A stretch of 37,396 nt of DNA from Halorubrum halophilum (GTDB taxonomy: Archaea > Halobacteriota > Halobacteria > Halobacteriales > Haloferacaceae). The translations under genes and the position numbers were made by a program. The first letter of the stretch is position 1. Each line of letters begins with the position of its first letter. Of the stretch, positions 16,546-37,396 are shown piece by piece. The DNA lies in contig NZ_BBJP01000033.1 in the NCBI RefSeq assembly GCF_000739595.1, forward strand, positions 1-37,396. The letters are read 5' to 3'. A model generated the notes under the pieces. It made no database searches. It worked only from the letters and a program-made list of their open reading frames with translations, and was not told the DNA's origin.

Positions 16546-16646
16546 GTATTCACGTAGGCCGCTGGCGCGTATATACCCCACGCCGGGGGTGACGGTTTCG
16601 ACACGGGATTCGACTCGGTAGCTCCGTGGGGATCCGACTTTTGACC

Positions 16647-16985
16647 GATTGCGAGAGTGGGTGTTGCAGATCGATGGCGACGAGACGGTATTTAAAAAGA
16701 CGTGAGCGACGGCGACGAACGGTTATAAATGAACGAGGCGGTGGCGCGCCCCGGTGAGCGGCCCTTCGGGCCGCGAACCGCCGGTGAGAGGGAGTCAGTC
16801 GCCCGGAGCAACGCGGAGGGCGACTGACGAGGCTGGGGAGGCGTGAGGCTGTGCGGTTGCGGTGCGGCTGGGGCTTTGGAGGTCTTCACCGTGCTGTCTG
16901 AGACTTATAAACAGCCGATAGCAACGCCACTCGATCGCTTATAAACAACCGTTTCACAAATTCGTTATACCTACTCCCACCATCG
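16647..16985 (+). repeat. Structured intergenic repeat, copy A (short form)
   Basis: Fills most of the 502-base gap between the DUF460 gene and panB. Left end GAGAGTGGGTGTTGCAG, then TTATAAAT (16723-16730) and, 27 bases on, hairpin P1 at 16752-16780 (loop CTTCG; internal GA/GA). Hairpin P2 pairs GTCAGTCGCCC (16794-16804) with GGGCGACTGAC (16818-16828). Conserved block GAGGCTGGGGAGG follows. The third hairpin is missing: its 5' half is deleted but the 3' block GGCTGGGGCTTTGG remains, ending TCACCG at 16887-16892. Two more TTATAAAC boxes and the right end CCTACTCCCACCATCG follow. Left part matches copy D closely, right part matches copy C. Confidence 0.85.
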
Positions 16986-17047
16986 CTCGCGGAGATATCC
17001 GTACTGACCGCGCCCGGGACAGAGCGCGTCTCCTTCGACAACCCCGG

Positions 17048-17854
17048 TCAGTACAAGTCGTCGAGCGCTGACTCGACGTGCGAGTGTTCCTCGGCGGGGA
17101 ACTCGCCGTCCGTCACCGCCTCCTTGTACGCCTCGACCGCGTCGAGCATCTCGCCGCGCACGTCGCCGAACTGCCGGGAGAACGGGGGCGACCACTCGCC
17201 GAGCCCCACCGCGTCGTTGATCACGAGCACCTGTCCGTCGCAGTCCGGGCCGGCGCCGATACCGATCGTCGGGATCTCCAGCGCCTCCGTCACCGCCCCC
17301 GCGAGGTTCGCCGGGACGTGCTCCAACACGAGCGCGAACGCGCCGGCCTCGGCGTGCGCCCCCGCGAGGTCGATTATCTCCTCGGCGGCGTCCTGATCGG
17401 TCCCCTGCCGGGTGTAGCCGCCGAGCCGGTTGACGTGCTGGGGCGTCAGGCCGAGGTGCGCCATCACCGGAATCCCGATGTCGGTCATCCGCTGCGTCAT
17501 TTCGACGGTGTGGGGGCCGCTCTCGATCTTCACCGCGTCGGCGTTCGCCTCCTTCAGGAGCCGGCCGGCGTTGCGTACCGACTCCGCCTCGTCGACGCCG
17601 AAGGAGAGGAAGGGCATGTCGGCGACGACGAGCGCGTCCTCGGTCGCGCGGGCGACCGCCGCGGTCCGACTCTCGACCTCCGCCATCGTCACGGGGAGCG
17701 TCGAGTCGTAGCCGAGGGCAGCGTTGCCCATGCTGTCGCCGACGAGGATCACGTCGATCCCGGCCTCGTCGAGGATCGCCGCCGTCGGAGCGTCGTAGGC
17801 GGTCAGCATCGTGATCGGCTCGTCTCCCTCCCGGAGTCCCCGCGCCGTGGTCAT
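17048..17854 (-). CDS. panB: 3-methyl-2-oxobutanoate hydroxymethyltransferase
   Basis: 268 residues, full length for PanB, which transfers a hydroxymethyl group from a folate one-carbon donor to 2-oxoisovalerate to make ketopantoate in CoA biosynthesis. Family signatures are LTAYDAPTAAILDEAGID, ILVGDSMGNAALGYDSTLPV, AVKIESG, VMAHLGLTPQ and PTIGIGAGPDCDGQVLV; these include the metal-binding Asp and Glu positions. The ATG at 17854 has CTTTAAC about 27 bases upstream, fitting a leaderless mRNA; longer in-frame starts upstream have poor sequence. The gene stands alone and its 3' end faces repeat copy A. Confidence 0.96.
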   Translation of the reverse strand: MTTARGLREGDEPITMLTAYDAPTAAILDEAGIDVILVGDSMGNAALGYDSTLPVTMAEVESRTAAVARATEDALVVADMPFLSFGVDEAESVRNAGRLLKEANADAVKIESGPHTVEMTQRMTDIGIPVMAHLGLTPQHVNRLGGYTRQGTDQDAAEEIIDLAGAHAEAGAFALVLEHVPANLAGAVTEALEIPTIGIGAGPDCDGQVLVINDAVGLGEWSPPFSRQFGDVRGEMLDAVEAYKEAVTDGEFPAEEHSHVESALDDLY

Positions 17855-22560: not shown

Positions 22561-22610
22561 TAGCGATGCGTGGTGGCGGTCGGATAAATAGGTGGGCGCC
22601 TCGTCGATCG

Positions 22611-22950
22611 CTTATAAAGACTGTGTGGTGGCGTGCGCCGGTGAGCGCCGCAACGCGGCGCGAACCGCCCGCACGAGGGAGTCGGTGGTCCGGAGCGAAG
22701 CGGAGGACCACCGACGAGGCTGGGGAGGCGTGAGGTGCGGTTGCTGTGCGGGGCGGGGTGGGACTCAAAGGGGCAGCCGGCGAGGCGGGCGCAGGCGACA
22801 CAAGCACCGCAAGGAGCGAACGGAGTGAGCGACTGAGGAGCGCGGCGAGCGTGCGCCCGCCTCGCCGGCTGGGGCTTTGCAGGTGTTCACCGCCGATCTG
22901 CCGTCAACCGTTTATAAGCGAGCGGCTGGAGCCATCACACTCACAATCGA
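22611..22950 (+). repeat. Structured intergenic repeat, copy B (long form)
   Basis: Occupies most of the 435-base gap between alaX-type and dodecin genes. CTTATAAAG (22611-22619) is 27 bases before hairpin P1 at 22639-22667 (loop AAC, internal GA/GA). P2 pairs GTCGGTGGTCC (22681-22691) with GGACCACCGAC (22705-22715). P3 pairs CAGCCGGCGAGGCGGGCGC (22774-22792) with its exact 19-base complement at 22853-22871, flanked by CAAAG/CTTTG (22766-22770, 22875-22879) with a GGG/GGG internal loop. The P3 loop holds GGAGCGAACGGAGTGAGCG. The block ends TCACCG near 22893; then TTTATAAGCGAGCGGCTGG. No terminal inverted repeat was found. Confidence 0.87.
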
Positions 22951-28401: not shown

Positions 28402-28955
28402 GAGGTTTAAACAGCGATGAGCGACAGCGATGATCGCTTCTAACAAACAGCGCGGTGGCGCGCCCCGGTGAGCGGCCCGAAGGGGCGCTCACCGACGGTG
28501 CGAGGGACGCGGTGAGCGCTCGGAGAGCGCGAACCGCGAGGCTGGGGAGGTGTGAGGTGCGGTGCGGTTGCGGGCGGGTGGGACTCAAAGGGGCAGTTGC
28601 CGGCGGCTTCGCCGCCGGCTGCCAGAGGCGCAAAGCGCCTTGCTGCCGCGAGGGCGCCGCAGGTGACGTAAGGACCGCAAGGAGCGAGCGACGCGAGCGA
28701 CCGAGGACCGCAGCGAGCGTGCGGCGCCCTCGCGGCTGGGGCTTTGGCGATGTTCACCGCGGAGGCAACGGCTTATAAGCGAGCGGCTGGGGCTTTGGCG
28801 ATGTTCACCGCGGAGGCAACGGCTTATAAGCGAGCGGCTGGGGCTTTGGCGATGTTCACCCCGCCGTCGACGACGTATAAACACTCGATAGCACCACCAC
28901 TCGATCACGTATAAACGACTACTCTCCCGTATCGACATACCTACTCCCGCTATCG
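28402..28955 (+). repeat. Structured intergenic repeat, copy C (longest)
   Basis: Occupies most of the 774-base gap between hisD and the methyltransferase. A weak TATA (TTCTAACAA) is 27 bases before hairpin P1 at 28466-28494, whose arms GGTGAGCG and CGCTCACC pair fully. P2 is at 28508-28538 (CGCGGT/ACCGCG, internal GA/GA, GCGCTC/GAGCGC). P3 pairs CCGCGAGGGCGCCGC (28646-28660) with its exact complement (28721-28735), flanked by CAAAG (28586-28590) and CTTTG (28742-28746). Two further hairpins at about 28599-28640 are inserted inside. Then follow the 51-base tandem units, ATAAAC boxes, and the end ACCTACTCCCGCTATCG (28939-28955). The remaining 145 bases to 29100 hold no gene, only the promoter described at 29101. 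Confidence 0.88.
28732..28860 (+). repeat. 51-bp tandem repeat, 2.5 units
   Basis: Units start at 28732, 28783 and 28834 with GCGGCTGGGGCTTTGGCGAT; the third ends after 27 bases at GTTCACC. Each full unit also holds GCTTATAAGCGA. Copy B carries one such unit followed by a degenerate start of a second. Identical units imply recent duplication. Confidence 0.95.
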
Positions 28956-29100
28956 ATCAAGCGGCGGTTTTCCGCGACCCGCTATTTCGGACGAGAACCA
29001 CCTACAGAAGAGGATTTCAGCGGATCCGAAGGAGAATACATCCGTTCTTTAAACGGACGCCGTCCGACGGCGTTTTACCTCTTTGCTCCAGTCACTACAC

Positions 29101-29721
29101 GTGAAACCTGATTCCGTCCGAGACACGTGGACGAACCGGACGGGCGAATACTCGCCGGCGTACTACGCGCATTACGGTCCCAACGACACGAGTGCGGTGA
29201 TTCGCGACATTCTCAGTAGCCGCCTTCCGCGTGACGCGGCCGTCCTCGAACTCGGGTGCGGTTCCGGCCGTCACCTCAAACACCTCGCCGACGGCGGCTT
29301 CGAGAACCTCTCCGGCGTCGACATCAACGCCGAGGCGTTCGACACGATGCGGGAGAGCTATCCCGCGCTCGCGGCCGACGGGACGTTTTACTGCGAGCCG
29401 ATAGAGGAGATCGTCGAGGACTTCGACGACGGGCAGTTCGATGCGGTCTACTCCGTCGAGACGCTCCAGCACCTCCATCCCGACGTCGAGTGGGTCTTCG
29501 AGGAGGTGGCTCGGATCACCGACGACACCCTCGTTACGGCGGAGATCGAGGGACCGATACGCGAATCGTCGTCGCCCGACCGAGACGTGAACTACGTCGA
29601 CAACGACACCCCCCTGTACTACCGAGACTGGGGGAGCGTCTTCACCTCGCTGGGCCTCGTCGAGGTCGACGTCGCCCGTGGCGACAGAGACACCACGCGG
29701 ACCTTTCGCGCGTCCGACTAA
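29101..29721 (+). CDS. SAM-dependent methyltransferase (class I)
   Basis: 206 residues. Class I fold with motif I VLELGCGSGRHLKHLA, acidic FENLSGVDIN after beta2, and SVETLQHLHPDVEWVFEEV, in the position of motifs III/IV. Small-molecule or protein target cannot be told. The GTG at 29101 is preferred: TTTTAC lies about 26 bases upstream, and the TTG six codons earlier has none. A perfect 17-base inverted repeat (ACGCCGTCcGACGGCGT, 29057-29073) sits just before that box and may be a regulator site. Transcribed away from repeat copy C. Confidence 0.9.
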   Translation: MKPDSVRDTWTNRTGEYSPAYYAHYGPNDTSAVIRDILSSRLPRDAAVLELGCGSGRHLKHLADGGFENLSGVDINAEAFDTMRESYPALAADGTFYCEPIEEIVEDFDDGQFDAVYSVETLQHLHPDVEWVFEEVARITDDTLVTAEIEGPIRESSSPDRDVNYVDNDTPLYYRDWGSVFTSLGLVEVDVARGDRDTTRTFRASD

Positions 29722-29743
29722 CTGCCGGCCTCGACAGGACCGA

Positions 29744-29953
29744 TCACTCCAACGGCCGGATTCCGGTCACGTCCAGCGTCGCGAGCGCGACCAGCCAGAC
29801 CAACAGCGCGGCGGCGGCGAAGAGGACCGGCGCGGAGAGCGCCACGGCGACCTCGTAGGGCGCGACGAGCCGCGTCGTGCCGCGGACGACGAACGACAGG
29901 AAGACGAGCCCGAACGCCGCAAGCGCGAGGCCGACGAACCGGGACCTGTTCAC
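29744..29953 (-). CDS. Small two-helix membrane protein
   Basis: 69 residues, GTG at 29953. Two membrane helices (about 7-24, VGLALAAFGLVFLSFVV, and about 38-60, ALSAPVLFAAAALLVWLVAL) with short loops. It lies 15 bases after crtB on the same strand with an SD-like GAGGCGAGG before the start, so it is probably translated from the same mRNA. Resembles a haloarchaeal family I recall as DUF7536 (unverified). Function unknown; a membrane role near phytoene synthase is possible by position. Confidence 0.75.
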   Translation of the reverse strand: MNRSRFVGLALAAFGLVFLSFVVRGTTRLVAPYEVAVALSAPVLFAAAALLVWLVALATLDVTGIRPLE

Positions 29954-29968
29954 GGCCCTCGCCTCGTT

Positions 29969-30934
29969 TCAGTCGGACCGGACGATACCCGGTCCGTGCG
30001 ACCCGTGTTCGCGGTGCTCGCGGCCGGTGTCGAAGCCGCCGCACATCTCGTCGAACACCGCTTCGGGGTCCTTGTTCCACTGCCACTTCCAGCGGGTCCG
30101 GACGAGCAACGAGATCTTGCGAGTGAACGACAGCTCCGGCGTCGTCGACACCGTGTCGTACCCCAGATTTCGGATCAGCCGGTGGTGGTCCGCGTACAGC
30201 ACCGCCGCGAGCAACACCGCCAGCTGGCAGTCCTCGGGGAGGTACTTGATCCCGGCGACGCCCTCCTCGTAGAGCCGCTCGGTCCGGTCGAGCTCCTCGC
30301 GGATCGCGGCCGCCACGTCGTCGTCGAACTCCAGATTCTGGATCTGCACCTCGCTCACGCCGTGTCGTCGAAGCGTCTCCAGCGGGAGGTACACCCGGTC
30401 ACGCTCGACCACGTCCTCGCGCACGTCCCGGATGAAGTTCGTCATCTGGAACGCCTCGCCGAGTTTCGTCGCGTGGGGGAGCGCCTTCGCCTCGGCCTCC
30501 TCGTCGAGGTCCATGATCGCCGTCATCATCCGGCCGACGGCGGCCGCGGAGCCGTTCATGTACGTCTCCAGCTCCTCGTAGGTCTCGTACCGGTCGATGT
30601 CGATGTCGCTCGCCATCGCATCGACGAAGGCGTGCACGTCCTCGTCCGGGATGCCGCGCTCGTCGCACACCGCGGCGAACGCCTCCAACACCGGGTCGTC
30701 GGTCTCCGTCTCGCCCAGCGCGGCCCGGCGAAGCCGGTCGAGTTCCGCCCGCTGTTCGTCCGGGGGCGCGGTCTCCTCGGCGTCGACGACCTCGTCCGCG
30801 ATCCGGAAGAAGCCGTACAGCACGTAGGTCGGGTGGCGGATTCGCTCCGGGAGCAGCCGGGTCGCGACGTGGAACGTCTTCCCGGTCCGGCGCTGGATCC
30901 GCTTCCCCTGGGCAACCTGCGTTTTCTCTACCAT
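29969..30934 (-). CDS. crtB: Phytoene synthase (squalene/phytoene synthase family)
   Basis: 321 residues. It joins two geranylgeranyl diphosphates into phytoene, the first carotenoid step; in haloarchaea this leads to bacterioruberin and retinal. Aspartate-rich motifs are RIADEVVDAEE and TNFIRDVREDVVERDRVYLP, with YGFFRIADE and Mg2+-binding Asp patterns of the family. No other carotenoid genes are near. The upstream gap (30935-31096) has a Shine-Dalgarno-like GAGGT before the ATG and a TATATT-like TATGTTATGA further up, so this gene probably has a short leader unlike most here. Squalene synthase is the alternative, but phytoene synthase is more likely in halophiles. Confidence 0.92.
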   Translation of the reverse strand: MVEKTQVAQGKRIQRRTGKTFHVATRLLPERIRHPTYVLYGFFRIADEVVDAEETAPPDEQRAELDRLRRAALGETETDDPVLEAFAAVCDERGIPDEDVHAFVDAMASDIDIDRYETYEELETYMNGSAAAVGRMMTAIMDLDEEAEAKALPHATKLGEAFQMTNFIRDVREDVVERDRVYLPLETLRRHGVSEVQIQNLEFDDDVAAAIREELDRTERLYEEGVAGIKYLPEDCQLAVLLAAVLYADHHRLIRNLGYDTVSTTPELSFTRKISLLVRTRWKWQWNKDPEAVFDEMCGGFDTGREHREHGSHGPGIVRSD

Positions 30935-31096
30935 GCTGACCTCTGACAGTCGGCAAGGAGGATCGAGAGCGGGTCGCCGATCATAACATACGGGTCGGAC
31001 CGCAAGAACATAACAGTTCGCACAGCACAGTTCGGTACCCGGTGGGCGGGCTCGCCGATCGCCGGCGGCCGGCCCCGCGGGTCGCGATCGCCGGCG

Positions 31097-31240
31097 TCAG
31101 TAGAAGGTGTCAGCGCAGTCGTAGACGACCCCGTGCTGCGGACAGACGTACTTGCAGTGGCGGTGGTACATCGGGGTCTCGCAGCGGGGGCAGGGCCGGC
31201 CGCCGGGGTCGGTCGCCGCCGCCTCCTCGGCGTCGCTCAT
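31097..31240 (-). CDS. 47-residue haloarchaeal zinc-finger protein
   Basis: A 47-residue protein, too short for many gene finders. It has CPRC (C17, C20) and HCKYVCPQHG (C29, C33), a treble-cleft-like small CPxCG zinc-finger pattern, with the peptide MSDAEEAAATDPGGRP before it. Haloarchaea have many such mini zinc proteins, some affecting motility, biofilm or stress; this one's role is unknown. GGTTATGCC is about 27 bases before the ATG at 31240, supporting a leaderless mRNA. Confidence 0.85.
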   Translation of the reverse strand: MSDAEEAAATDPGGRPCPRCETPMYHRHCKYVCPQHGVVYDCADTFY

Positions 31241-31297
31241 ATCTCCCCGAACGGGTGCCGCCGGCATAACCGCTGTCCTCGATGAACGATGCAGTAA

Positions 31298-31867
31298 TCA
31301 GGCGTCGGCCAGCGAGTCGTACACCGACTCCGCGACCGACGCCTGACCGAACGGGAGCGTCAACACGCCGCCCCACTCCGCGTCGGTCAGCGCGGAGACC
31401 GTCGCCTCGTCCAGTTCGACCCGCCGGACCTCGGTCCCGTCAAGCGTCATCGACACCACGAACCCCGCCGGGTCCTCGGTCGCCCCGGCGTCCGCCAGCC
31501 CCGACTGCAGGGCGTCGATCCCGGCGTCGGCGAGCGAGACGTACACGAGGTGTTCGTCGCCCTCGGCGATCACGCCCTGAACGCGGTCCAGGTCGCCCGC
31601 GCCGAAGAGCCGTCGGTGGTCGTCGCCGTCGCGGAGCAGCCGCGCCTCGAACGGAGCGTCGGGATCGGCCGTGACGGACCCCGACTCGCCGTTCTCGTCG
31701 TCGCCAGCGCCGTCTGTCGCCCCTCCGCCGAACGGGCCCCCGCCGGAACCGGTCCCGTCGCCGACCGCGTCGCCGTCCGTCACCGAGGCGGCGCCGGCGA
31801 AGCCGACGGCGCCGACCGCGAGCGCCGCCCCGGCCCCGCCGAGCATGCCGCGTCGAGAGAGTTCCAT
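31298..31867 (-). CDS. Twin-arginine signal protein with SecD-P1-like domain
   Basis: 189 residues. The N-terminus MELSRRGMLGGAGAALAVGA has the twin-arginine motif and a hydrophobic stretch, as in haloarchaeal Tat or Tat-lipoprotein signals; no lipobox Cys is seen, so it is probably soluble or anchored. A low-complexity Gly/Asp spacer is followed by a domain of about 115 residues (FEARLLRDGDDHRRLFGAGD, VYVSLADAGIDALQSGLADA) that resembles the P1 head of SecD (weak, by eye). TTTTTACC is about 27 bases before the ATG. Role unknown. Confidence 0.75.
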   Translation of the reverse strand: MELSRRGMLGGAGAALAVGAVGFAGAASVTDGDAVGDGTGSGGGPFGGGATDGAGDDENGESGSVTADPDAPFEARLLRDGDDHRRLFGAGDLDRVQGVIAEGDEHLVYVSLADAGIDALQSGLADAGATEDPAGFVVSMTLDGTEVRRVELDEATVSALTDAEWGGVLTLPFGQASVAESVYDSLADA

Positions 31868-31967
31868 ACGCGACGGTCCCCGTCGGCGGTAAAAAGGGTT
31901 ACACGCCGATTCACGCGGCTGATAACGGGGGTCGGGAAGACGGGTGAGTAGTTAATTGTGGATCAGT

Positions 31968-32321
31968 GGTGAGGACCTCCAAAGCCCCAGCCGCGCTCGG
32001 CTCCCACAGCTCGCTGCGGTCCTCGGTCGCTCGCGTCGCTCGCTCCCTGTGGTCCTTACGTCGCTGGGGTTCGCCGAGCGCGGCTGCCCCTTTGAGTCCC
32101 ACCCGCCCGCAACCGCACCGCACCTCACACCTCCCCAGCCTCGTCGGCGCGGCGCTTATAAGCGCCGCGCCGACTCCCTCGCGCCGTCGGTGAGCGCCCC
32201 TTCGGGCCGCTCACCGGGCGCGCCACCGCCGTGTTCATTTATAAGAGGTCGTCGCCATCACTCATGTCTTTTTAAATACGCTCTTGCCATCATCGATCTG
32301 CAACACCTACTCCCGCTATCG
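31968..32321 (-). repeat. Structured intergenic repeat, copy D (inverted)
   Basis: Fills most of the 550-base gap between the Tat protein and the nicotinamidase, in reverse orientation to A-C. The left end carries ACCTACTCCCGCTATCG (32305-32321) as the + strand sequence, then TTTATAAG (32237-32245) 27 bases before P1 (32188-32216, same sequence as copy C). P2 is a perfect 32-base palindrome at 32143-32174 with TTATAA at its centre. P3 pairs GCCGAGCGCGGCTG (32073-32086) with 31988-32001, and the block ends GGTGAG at 31968-31973. No recognisable gene is inside it. The rest of the gap shows nothing else. Confidence 0.87.
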
Positions 32322-32417
32322 AGCGCCCCTCTGTCCGTCTTGGTCGCACTCGGTTCCGAACGCATCGCCTACTGAGGAGTTCACCAGCGCGGATCTCCCG
32401 TCGTCACACCTCTCGTC

Positions 32418-32996
32418 TCACGCGTCTTCGAACGCGACCGACTCGCGGGTCGCCGTCTCGCCGAACAGCCAGTCGGCGTGGTCGACCGCGTACTCGCGGT
32501 GCTCCTCGGTGATGTACCCGAGCGCGTCCTCGACGACCACGGGTCGGTAGTCGCGGAGCCCGGCGCTGCCGGCGGTGTGGAGCACGCAGACGTTCGCGAG
32601 CGTCCCGCAGATCAGGAGGTCGTCGATGCCGTGCGCGTCGAGGTACCCTTCTAGGTCCGTCCGGTAGAACGCGTCGTACGTGTGCTTCTCCACGACGTGG
32701 TCCTCCTCGCGCACGTCGAGGTCATCGACGAGCTCGGCGTCCCACGACCCCTCGACGACGTGTTCGCCCCACCGATCGAACTCGTCGTAGTAGTGGGTGT
32801 CGTCGAACTGGTCGGGTGGGTGGACGTCCCGGGTGTAGACGACGCTCGCGCCGGCGTCGCGGGCGCGGTCGACGAGGGCCGTCACCGGCTCGACGGCCGC
32901 CTCGCTCGGCGCGGCGTAGAGGCTCCCGTCGGGGTGACAGAAGCCGTTCTGCATGTCGACGACGATCACCGCGGTCTCGGTCGGGTCGTACGGCAT
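32418..32996 (-). CDS. Nicotinamidase-like cysteine hydrolase
   Basis: 192 residues, isochorismatase-like fold. The catalytic triad D14 (VVDMQNGFC), K104 (VEKHTYDAF) and C137 (TLANVCV) is complete, and DVHPPDQFDDTHY (D57, H59, H68) matches the metal site of nicotinamidase PncA. It would hydrolyse nicotinamide to nicotinate in NAD salvage. The nicotinate phosphoribosyltransferase that would use the product lies 2 kb away on the other strand. GTTTTTGAG is about 27 bases before the ATG at 32996. General cysteine hydrolase remains an alternative. Confidence 0.85.
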   Translation of the reverse strand: MPYDPTETAVIVVDMQNGFCHPDGSLYAAPSEAAVEPVTALVDRARDAGASVVYTRDVHPPDQFDDTHYYDEFDRWGEHVVEGSWDAELVDDLDVREEDHVVEKHTYDAFYRTDLEGYLDAHGIDDLLICGTLANVCVLHTAGSAGLRDYRPVVVEDALGYITEEHREYAVDHADWLFGETATRESVAFEDA

Positions 32997-33121
32997 GGGC
33001 AGAAATTGTGCGTCGGGGCTCAAAAACACCCGGCGCCGCTCGCATTCCGCGCCGGCCGGTTCGGCCCGGCGGCCGCCACCGCACCGACAAACTACTTATC
33101 GGGCCGGCCGTAATCGAACCT

Positions 33122-36973: not shown

Positions 36974-37310
36974 CGGACAGAGGGAGCCCGACTCCCGTGC
37001 CTCTGGCATGAGGAAAGTCCCCCCACCGGCCGGACAGGCGACCGGGCACACGCCCGGAGTCGGAGACGGCTGGCTCTGGAACAGCAACGACACCCCCCAC
37101 CCCGACCCGTGATTCGCGCGAACCGACCCGCAAGGGAAGGGAGCTAACCCGATGAGGGCGCGTGGCTTTGCCACGTTACAGACGGGTGGGAACGGATGGA
37201 ACGGCGAATCCTCGCCGGTGCAAGTCCGCGCCACAAGGTAGTCCGGCCACGGCGCGGACGCTCAGCCGAATGTCGGGACGAACCGAAGGGGGCTTACTCC
37301 CCTCAGTCCG
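36974..37310 (+). ncRNA. rnpB: RNase P RNA
   Basis: The catalytic RNA of RNase P, which trims the 5' leader of tRNA precursors. Diagnostic CR-I sequence GAGGAAAGTCC is at 37010-37020, and near the 3' end comes AACCGAAGGGGGCTTACTCC, the conserved pairing partner. The outer helix P1 is visible as CGGACAGAGGG (36974-36984) with CCCTCAGTCCG (37300-37310). Other family landmarks are GGTGCAAGTCCGCGCC and ACAAGGTAGTCCGGCC. CCTTATT at 36944-36950 is 27 bases upstream of the proposed 5' end. Type A archaeal form; ends are predicted to within a few bases. Confidence 0.93.
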
Positions 37311-37342: not shown

Positions 37343-37396
37343 ATCATTTATAAGTGAGTATTCGTGGATCGACGGTGAACTCCTTCAAAGCCCCAG
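37343..37396 (-). repeat. Structured intergenic repeat, copy E (cut by window end)
   Basis: Only the terminal part, inverted like copy D, is in the window: TTTATAAG, then GGTGAAC near 37375-37381 and TTCAAAGCCCCAG to 37396, which is the reverse of CTGGGGCTTTGAA... GTTCACCG. It begins about 33 bases after the proposed RNase P RNA end. The rest of the element should lie beyond 37396. Confidence 0.75.

Follow-up and report, generated by a model that had tools for sequence, protein, structure and literature searches.

Invertible DNA segments (invertons) lie between inverted repeats and are found both ways round. Target duplications of 8 bp are usual for IS6 elements. The terminal repeat of the bacterial IS6/IS26 elements has the consensus GGTTCTGTTGCAAA, and the archaeal IS6 elements form a separate group, according to the accessible part of PMC6807381. 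As far as the accessible part of PMC3119063 describes them, PATE elements have neither inverted terminal repeats nor target duplications, carry palindromes near their termini, and are tied to IS605-type elements; SMR elements are set apart by inverted ends unrelated to known transposons and by the absence of a target duplication.

The window described here, a stretch of 37,396 bp from Halorubrum halophilum, is contig 71 of a source genome of 3.68 Mb in 103 contigs and contains copies A to D of a hairpin-rich repeat (Table 1). It is probable, at roughly two chances in three, that the 17-bp inverted repeat ACCTACTCCCGCTATCG bounds an inner cassette within a composite, non-autonomous transposon (a MITE) of about 590 bp, which is mobilized via IS6-type ends and whose cassette is invertible. 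The composite structure is preferred because the 17-mer is not terminal, the arms outside it (Y and X) are distinct, 16-bp ends are present, members of the family have 8-bp duplications, and the ends match those of IS6/IS26. Such a unit would run from GGCTCTGTTGAAATCC and about 55 bp of arm Y through a 17-mer, a cassette of about 445 bp that holds the genus-wide hairpin repeat, and an inverted 17-mer, to about 55 bp of arm X and GGATTTCAACAGAGCC. An IS6-type DDE transposase supplied in trans and acting on the 16-bp ends would move the whole unit, and recombination between the two inverted 17-mers would turn the cassette round. A member of the family may have captured one copy of an older hairpin repeat before spreading through part of the genus.

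Table 1. Element features in the window, by copy. L and R denote the sides of the cassette; X and Y denote the outer arms.
Feature	Position	Strand	Basis or remark
Copy A, left 17-mer	16646..16662	+	3 mismatches; related 17-mer on −
Copy A, right 17-mer	16969..16985	−	2 mismatches; related 17-mer on +
Copy A, decayed outer arm X, R side	16986..17050	−	X z 5.1, Y z −0.5; flank class RX
Copy B, core repeat, without 17-mers	22610..22935	+	
Copy C, hairpin-rich core repeat	28453..28748	+	
Copy C, tandem units, three of 51 bp	28732..28884	+	repeat family D7
Copy C, inner inverted repeat, 17 bp, R side of cassette	28939..28955	−	exact ACCTACTCCCGCTATCG on +; motif search, flank classes
Copy C, outer arm Y	28956..29027	−	55/73 identical to Y arm; z 14.8 for Y and 3.5 for X
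Copy C, 16-bp outer end	29012..29027	−	3 mismatches
Copy D, other boundary; R arm, R 17-mer and arm Y lost	31930..31944	.	homology with element-free relatives stops at 31925-31944
Copy D, hairpin-rich core repeat	31966..32235	−	401-bp query; best matches 74-91% identity genome-wide
Copy D, inner inverted repeat, 17 bp, L side of cassette	32305..32321	−	exact ACCTACTCCCGCTATCG on +; motif search, flank classes
Copy D, outer arm X	32322..32391	−	48/70 identical to X arm; z versus shuffles 11.7 for X and 2.3 for Y
Copy D, decayed 16-bp outer end, GGCTCTGTTGAAATCC type	32376..32391	−	4 mismatches; 71 bp outside 17-mer

An earlier note on this DNA had reported the same 17 bases on copies C and D, in opposite relation to their elements, and related sequence at both ends of copy A. 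These observations are borne out. The two perfect matches begin at 28939 and 32305, and because the core lies on the plus strand in C and on the minus strand in D, the 17 bases stand at opposite ends of the two copies. With up to three mismatches the 17-mer occurs at four places in the window; 100 shuffles averaged 0.12 such places and never gave more than 2. The source genome contains 61 17-mers with up to two mismatches (27 on the plus strand and 34 on the minus strand), against 0 and 1 matches for a control with the reversed pattern. The 83 core copies sampled from this genome comprise 24 with the 17-mer on both sides, 14 with it on one side, and 45 with it on neither. Where both 17-mers are present the span is near-constant, about 441-457 bp in most copies, in a list that, like those of duplications at the 17-mer and of outer ends, enters many elements twice, once per strand. 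In copy C, two of the 3' tandem units are identical, with TATA-like boxes at the end, and the number of units varies among other copies. The contig terminates within another partial copy (37350-37396), so it is probable that the repeats broke the assembly; an archaeal RNase P RNA gene lies at 36976-37308.

A classical MITE with the 17-mer as its true terminal inverted repeat, the reading proposed in the earlier note, would be expected to show such paired and evenly spaced 17-mers. The sequence farther out makes this very improbable. Similarity continues for about 72 bp beyond the 17-mer on each side, and many copies run outward into one of the two conserved arms, which end in GGCTCTGTTGAAATCC 69-74 bp away. 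In the window the 17-mer of copy C continues into Y, and that of copy D and the right one of copy A continue into X. The terminal repeat is thus GGCTCTGTTGAAATCC, and the 17-mer, although a real inverted repeat, is subterminal. No clear sign of a target duplication emerged beside the 17-mer: a single word length of the nine tried exceeded every one of 100 permutations, in rows double-counted over both strands. The 16-mer, on the other hand, is shared with elements that are perfectly duplicated over 8 bp. The idea of a terminal 17-mer is rejected on these outer arms. On the lost or decayed sides of copies A, C, and D the arm z values lie below 3. At the outer end of copy D homology with relatives restarts at 32389-32395, and an orthologue of this copy (L121) retains arm Y and the R-side 17-mer.

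GGCTCTGTTGAAATCC occurs with at most one mismatch at 42 places in the source genome, against none for the control. Among 16 inverted pairs of the 16-mer, taken from loci L314-L343, nine have 8-bp flanks that match at all eight positions and one (L334) matches at seven; the random chance of a match of at least 7/8 is 0.0009. L334, also listed as L104, bears the core, is 683 bp long, and is the sole core-bearing copy with a target duplication. The 16-mer is found at both ends of this element and of L016, L008, L018, and L039, with varying decay; core-bearing copies are mostly decayed. The view that a complete element has inverted ends and resembles a MITE is upheld, and duplications are seen in the 16-mer family rather than at the 17-mer. 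Arms Y and X also border unrelated cargo. Eight elements of the source genome (L319, L322, L324, L326, L327, L328, L331, and L335) have GGCTCTGTTGAAATCC ends and perfect 8-bp duplications without a transposase, and several such elements carry passenger genes: helix-turn-helix-like and DUF6498-like (both below cut-off), DUF5518, TrmB-like with DUF7437, and lipoprotein-like. Among 72,556 plasmid records, arm Y is present in 85 and arm X in 35, the named organisms being haloarchaea, and five records match the copy D element weakly; viral contigs gave 0 matches and phages none. The first 13 bases of GGCTCTGTTGAAATCC matched only unrelated mouse work in the open-licence full-text literature.

Compared by eye, the first 14 bases of GGCTCTGTTGAAATCC match 11 of 14 in the IS6/IS26 consensus, and the 16-bp ends retain its GG start, G7, and G10; the consensus, as given in the available portion of its source, is bacterial. 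The search that the earlier note had suggested, for a transposase flanked by the same ends, covered three hits to PF13610 (IS6) and four to PF12762 (IS1595) in the source genome and found none, since the surroundings of these genes lack the ends. These genes are rejected as the autonomous partner on that ground. Three annotated IS6 genes of the Halorubrum plasmid pHrrPV6 have other ends, not GGCTCTGTTGAAATCC. On the plasmid of Halorubrum sp. PV6, IS6-family transposases at L352 and L353 have the different end GGCGATGTTAAGTTAAG, and one of the copies has a 16-mer end on either side of it. The window itself had been said to lack a transposase, and none is among the ORFs listed for 28900-33020. 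Two absences had been named as telling against a mobile element, that of a transposase with the same ends and that of copy-number differences. Only half of this holds, since no matching transposase was found but copy numbers differ greatly between species.

Empty sites, which the earlier note had proposed to look for in close strains, are present for three of the copies. At the copy D site 24 of 29 relatives are empty, with 88-212 bp between the anchors versus 569 bp here, in a comparison of the best 30 loci of 52 genomes (the 29 relatives and the source genome). The others comprise a full copy (G036), a core-deleted copy with both 17-mers (G027), a rearranged site (G023), and two sites with an unrelated insertion. 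The copy A site, visible in the stretch of a single relative (G020), measures 26 bp there versus 456 bp here. The copy C site is empty in seven of 10 relatives and holds a copy in two, with G027 in neither class. At the copy B site, G016 has only the 3' unit left and G023 a core-deleted remnant. The element is mobile in evolutionary time, given the absence of D and A from their orthologous sites. An ORF with a methyltransferase domain (29083-29721) lies directly beyond copy C, within its gap, and is absent together with C at the empty sites.

The two ends of the cassette differ, the L side reading TTGCAGATC...TATTTAAA and the R side TTTATAAGTGATCGAGTGG. Outer flanks were classified against reference arms from cargo-bearing relatives, with a cut at the 99th percentile of 300 random stretches. 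The 74 flanks fall into 11 LY, 10 LX, eight RY, and eight RX, with 37 unclassified; outside the source genome 25 flanks gave four RY, four LX, three RX, and one LY, with 13 unclassified. Both ends could be classified in nine elements, of which eight are self-consistent (five LY/RX and three LX/RY) and one, L011, is self-contradictory. The cassette therefore lies both ways between arms Y and X. In the window copy A has one orientation and copies C and D the opposite, and the point at which orientation switches is the position of the 17-mer. Orientation labels are intermixed on a small and mostly unsupported tree of 13 of the 28 labeled cassettes, which requires five changes (shuffled mean 4.2), at least two of them forced by starred branches. 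Copy D, at which a same-locus inversion was looked for, has one orientation in all three genomes that hold it. The simplest reading of the mixed orientations, we infer, is inversion between the two inverted 17-mers.

Cassettes lying both ways would also be produced if the cassette were an independent small mobile element, resembling the SMRs, that inserts either way at one preferred spot in Y/X MITEs. The general lack of a duplication beside the 17-mers would agree with this, as would the preference of SMR-A elements for insertion into other mobile elements reported in the accessible part of PMC3119063. Against it, an exact-match and insensitive pattern for the rejoined empty site, CTTCTTGAT-(0-8)-CGCYGCTGT, had no match in any of 52 genomes. 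Moreover, the classifiable cassette copies lie within the Y/X arms, and SMRs, by the same partial source, are only about 80-110 bp long. We regard independent insertion as unlikely, and inversion of a cassette enclosed in a composite MITE as the better account.

The hairpin-rich repeat itself extends well beyond the 17-mer. Its core motif GACGAGGCTGGGGAGGNGTGAGG, with up to two mismatches, is present in all 52 genomes of the genus at 8-192 places each, with a control of 0 in all. Of 170 genomes from the family, 61 contain a second core motif; outside the genus many matches (72) are found only in G113. Named loci with the core motif belong to Halorubrum species, Halobellus captivus, and a few MAGs. 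By comparison, 23 of these 52 genomes contain the 17-mer with an arm, and since more than half of the sampled core copies also lack the 17-mer (45/83), the repeat looks older and wider than its 17-mer version. Core copies are intergenic in 78 of 81 cases and overlap a predicted coding sequence in three; 34 of the 71 with both neighbors called lie between convergent genes, by counts from a rough gene finder and with no genome baseline. Double-hairpin inserts of about 50 bp are nested in core stems and loops of L055, L060, L080, and others, and the same sequences recur at different places. No description of the hairpin-rich repeat was found in the open-licence full-text literature on haloarchaeal repeats, MITEs, and insertion elements.

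The RNA fold of copy D has z −6.4 on the minus strand and −6.8 on the other, versus shuffles; a strong fold on both strands is what palindromes give. In the long stem P3 the paired cells amount to 93.7% in 76 source-genome copies and 93.1% in a second set of 102, as compared with shuffled means of 74% and 79%, and all four Watson-Crick types occur at one position in the source-genome copies. Within P3, G.T outnumbers A.C (24 to 9 and 39 to 8), a bias that would be left by an RNA of the G-rich strand and not by a DNA cruciform; the tallies are of related sequences and do not represent independent events. In stems P1 and P2 both kinds of intermediate are nearly absent, under a count rule that trims helix ends and with an alternative P2 count in which one hairpin type is out of register. 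In Rfam only RNase P reached the gathering score in the window, and copy D had nothing near it.

Alternatively, the inverted 17-mers might serve a structured RNA gene as promoter or regulator sites and be unrelated to mobility, recombination having spread the copies. The covariation of P3, with G.U favored over A.C on one strand, and the TATA-like boxes seen by consensus in both cassette arms would suit such sites. Presence and absence among relatives and the shared transposon ends nevertheless require a mechanism of mobility anyway, and we give this explanation very little credence. A combined view, offered tentatively as a possibility, is that the cassette carries a member of a new genus-wide family of structured non-coding RNA genes, captured by an IS6-type MITE between inverting 17-mers, which would make it an archaeal RNA cassette that is mobile and switches orientation.

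The idea of a MITE is thus partly supported, with the 17-bp terminal repeat to be replaced by the edge of an inner cassette within a MITE with IS6-type ends. The two-way cassette and the genus-wide hairpin repeat aboard distinguish this element from an ordinary MITE. Capture in a MITE whose ends are common across haloarchaea and also enclose passenger genes would be one route to mobility for a hairpin repeat. The mixed orientations predict inversion of the cassette, and this prediction is simply testable.

Like MITEs with IS6/IS26-type ends, the element is short, is without a transposase, and has inverted 16-bp ends (GG, G7, G10), and members of its family show 8-bp duplications. It differs from them in the long, conserved, asymmetric arms, in the inner two-way cassette, and in that no autonomous partner was found here. 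The PATE elements that the earlier note had offered as a comparison are likewise numerous, non-coding, palindrome-rich haloarchaeal repeats, but the inverted ends and the family's 8-bp duplications are at odds with their definition as published in the portion of the source available, and identity with PATE is rejected on that definition. By the SMR features given in that portion, the 17-mer cassette would fit and the whole element does not. The cassette resembles the SMRs of Haloquadratum walsbyi in the inverted repeats at its edge, the lack of a clear target duplication, and its position within other mobile elements (PMC3119063, in part); it differs from these far shorter elements in its length and in that its edges coincide with fixed outer arms. 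With invertons it shares a position between inverted repeats and the occurrence of both orientations between fixed flanks, and it differs from them in that no recombinase was identified here and copy D has the same orientation wherever it is held.
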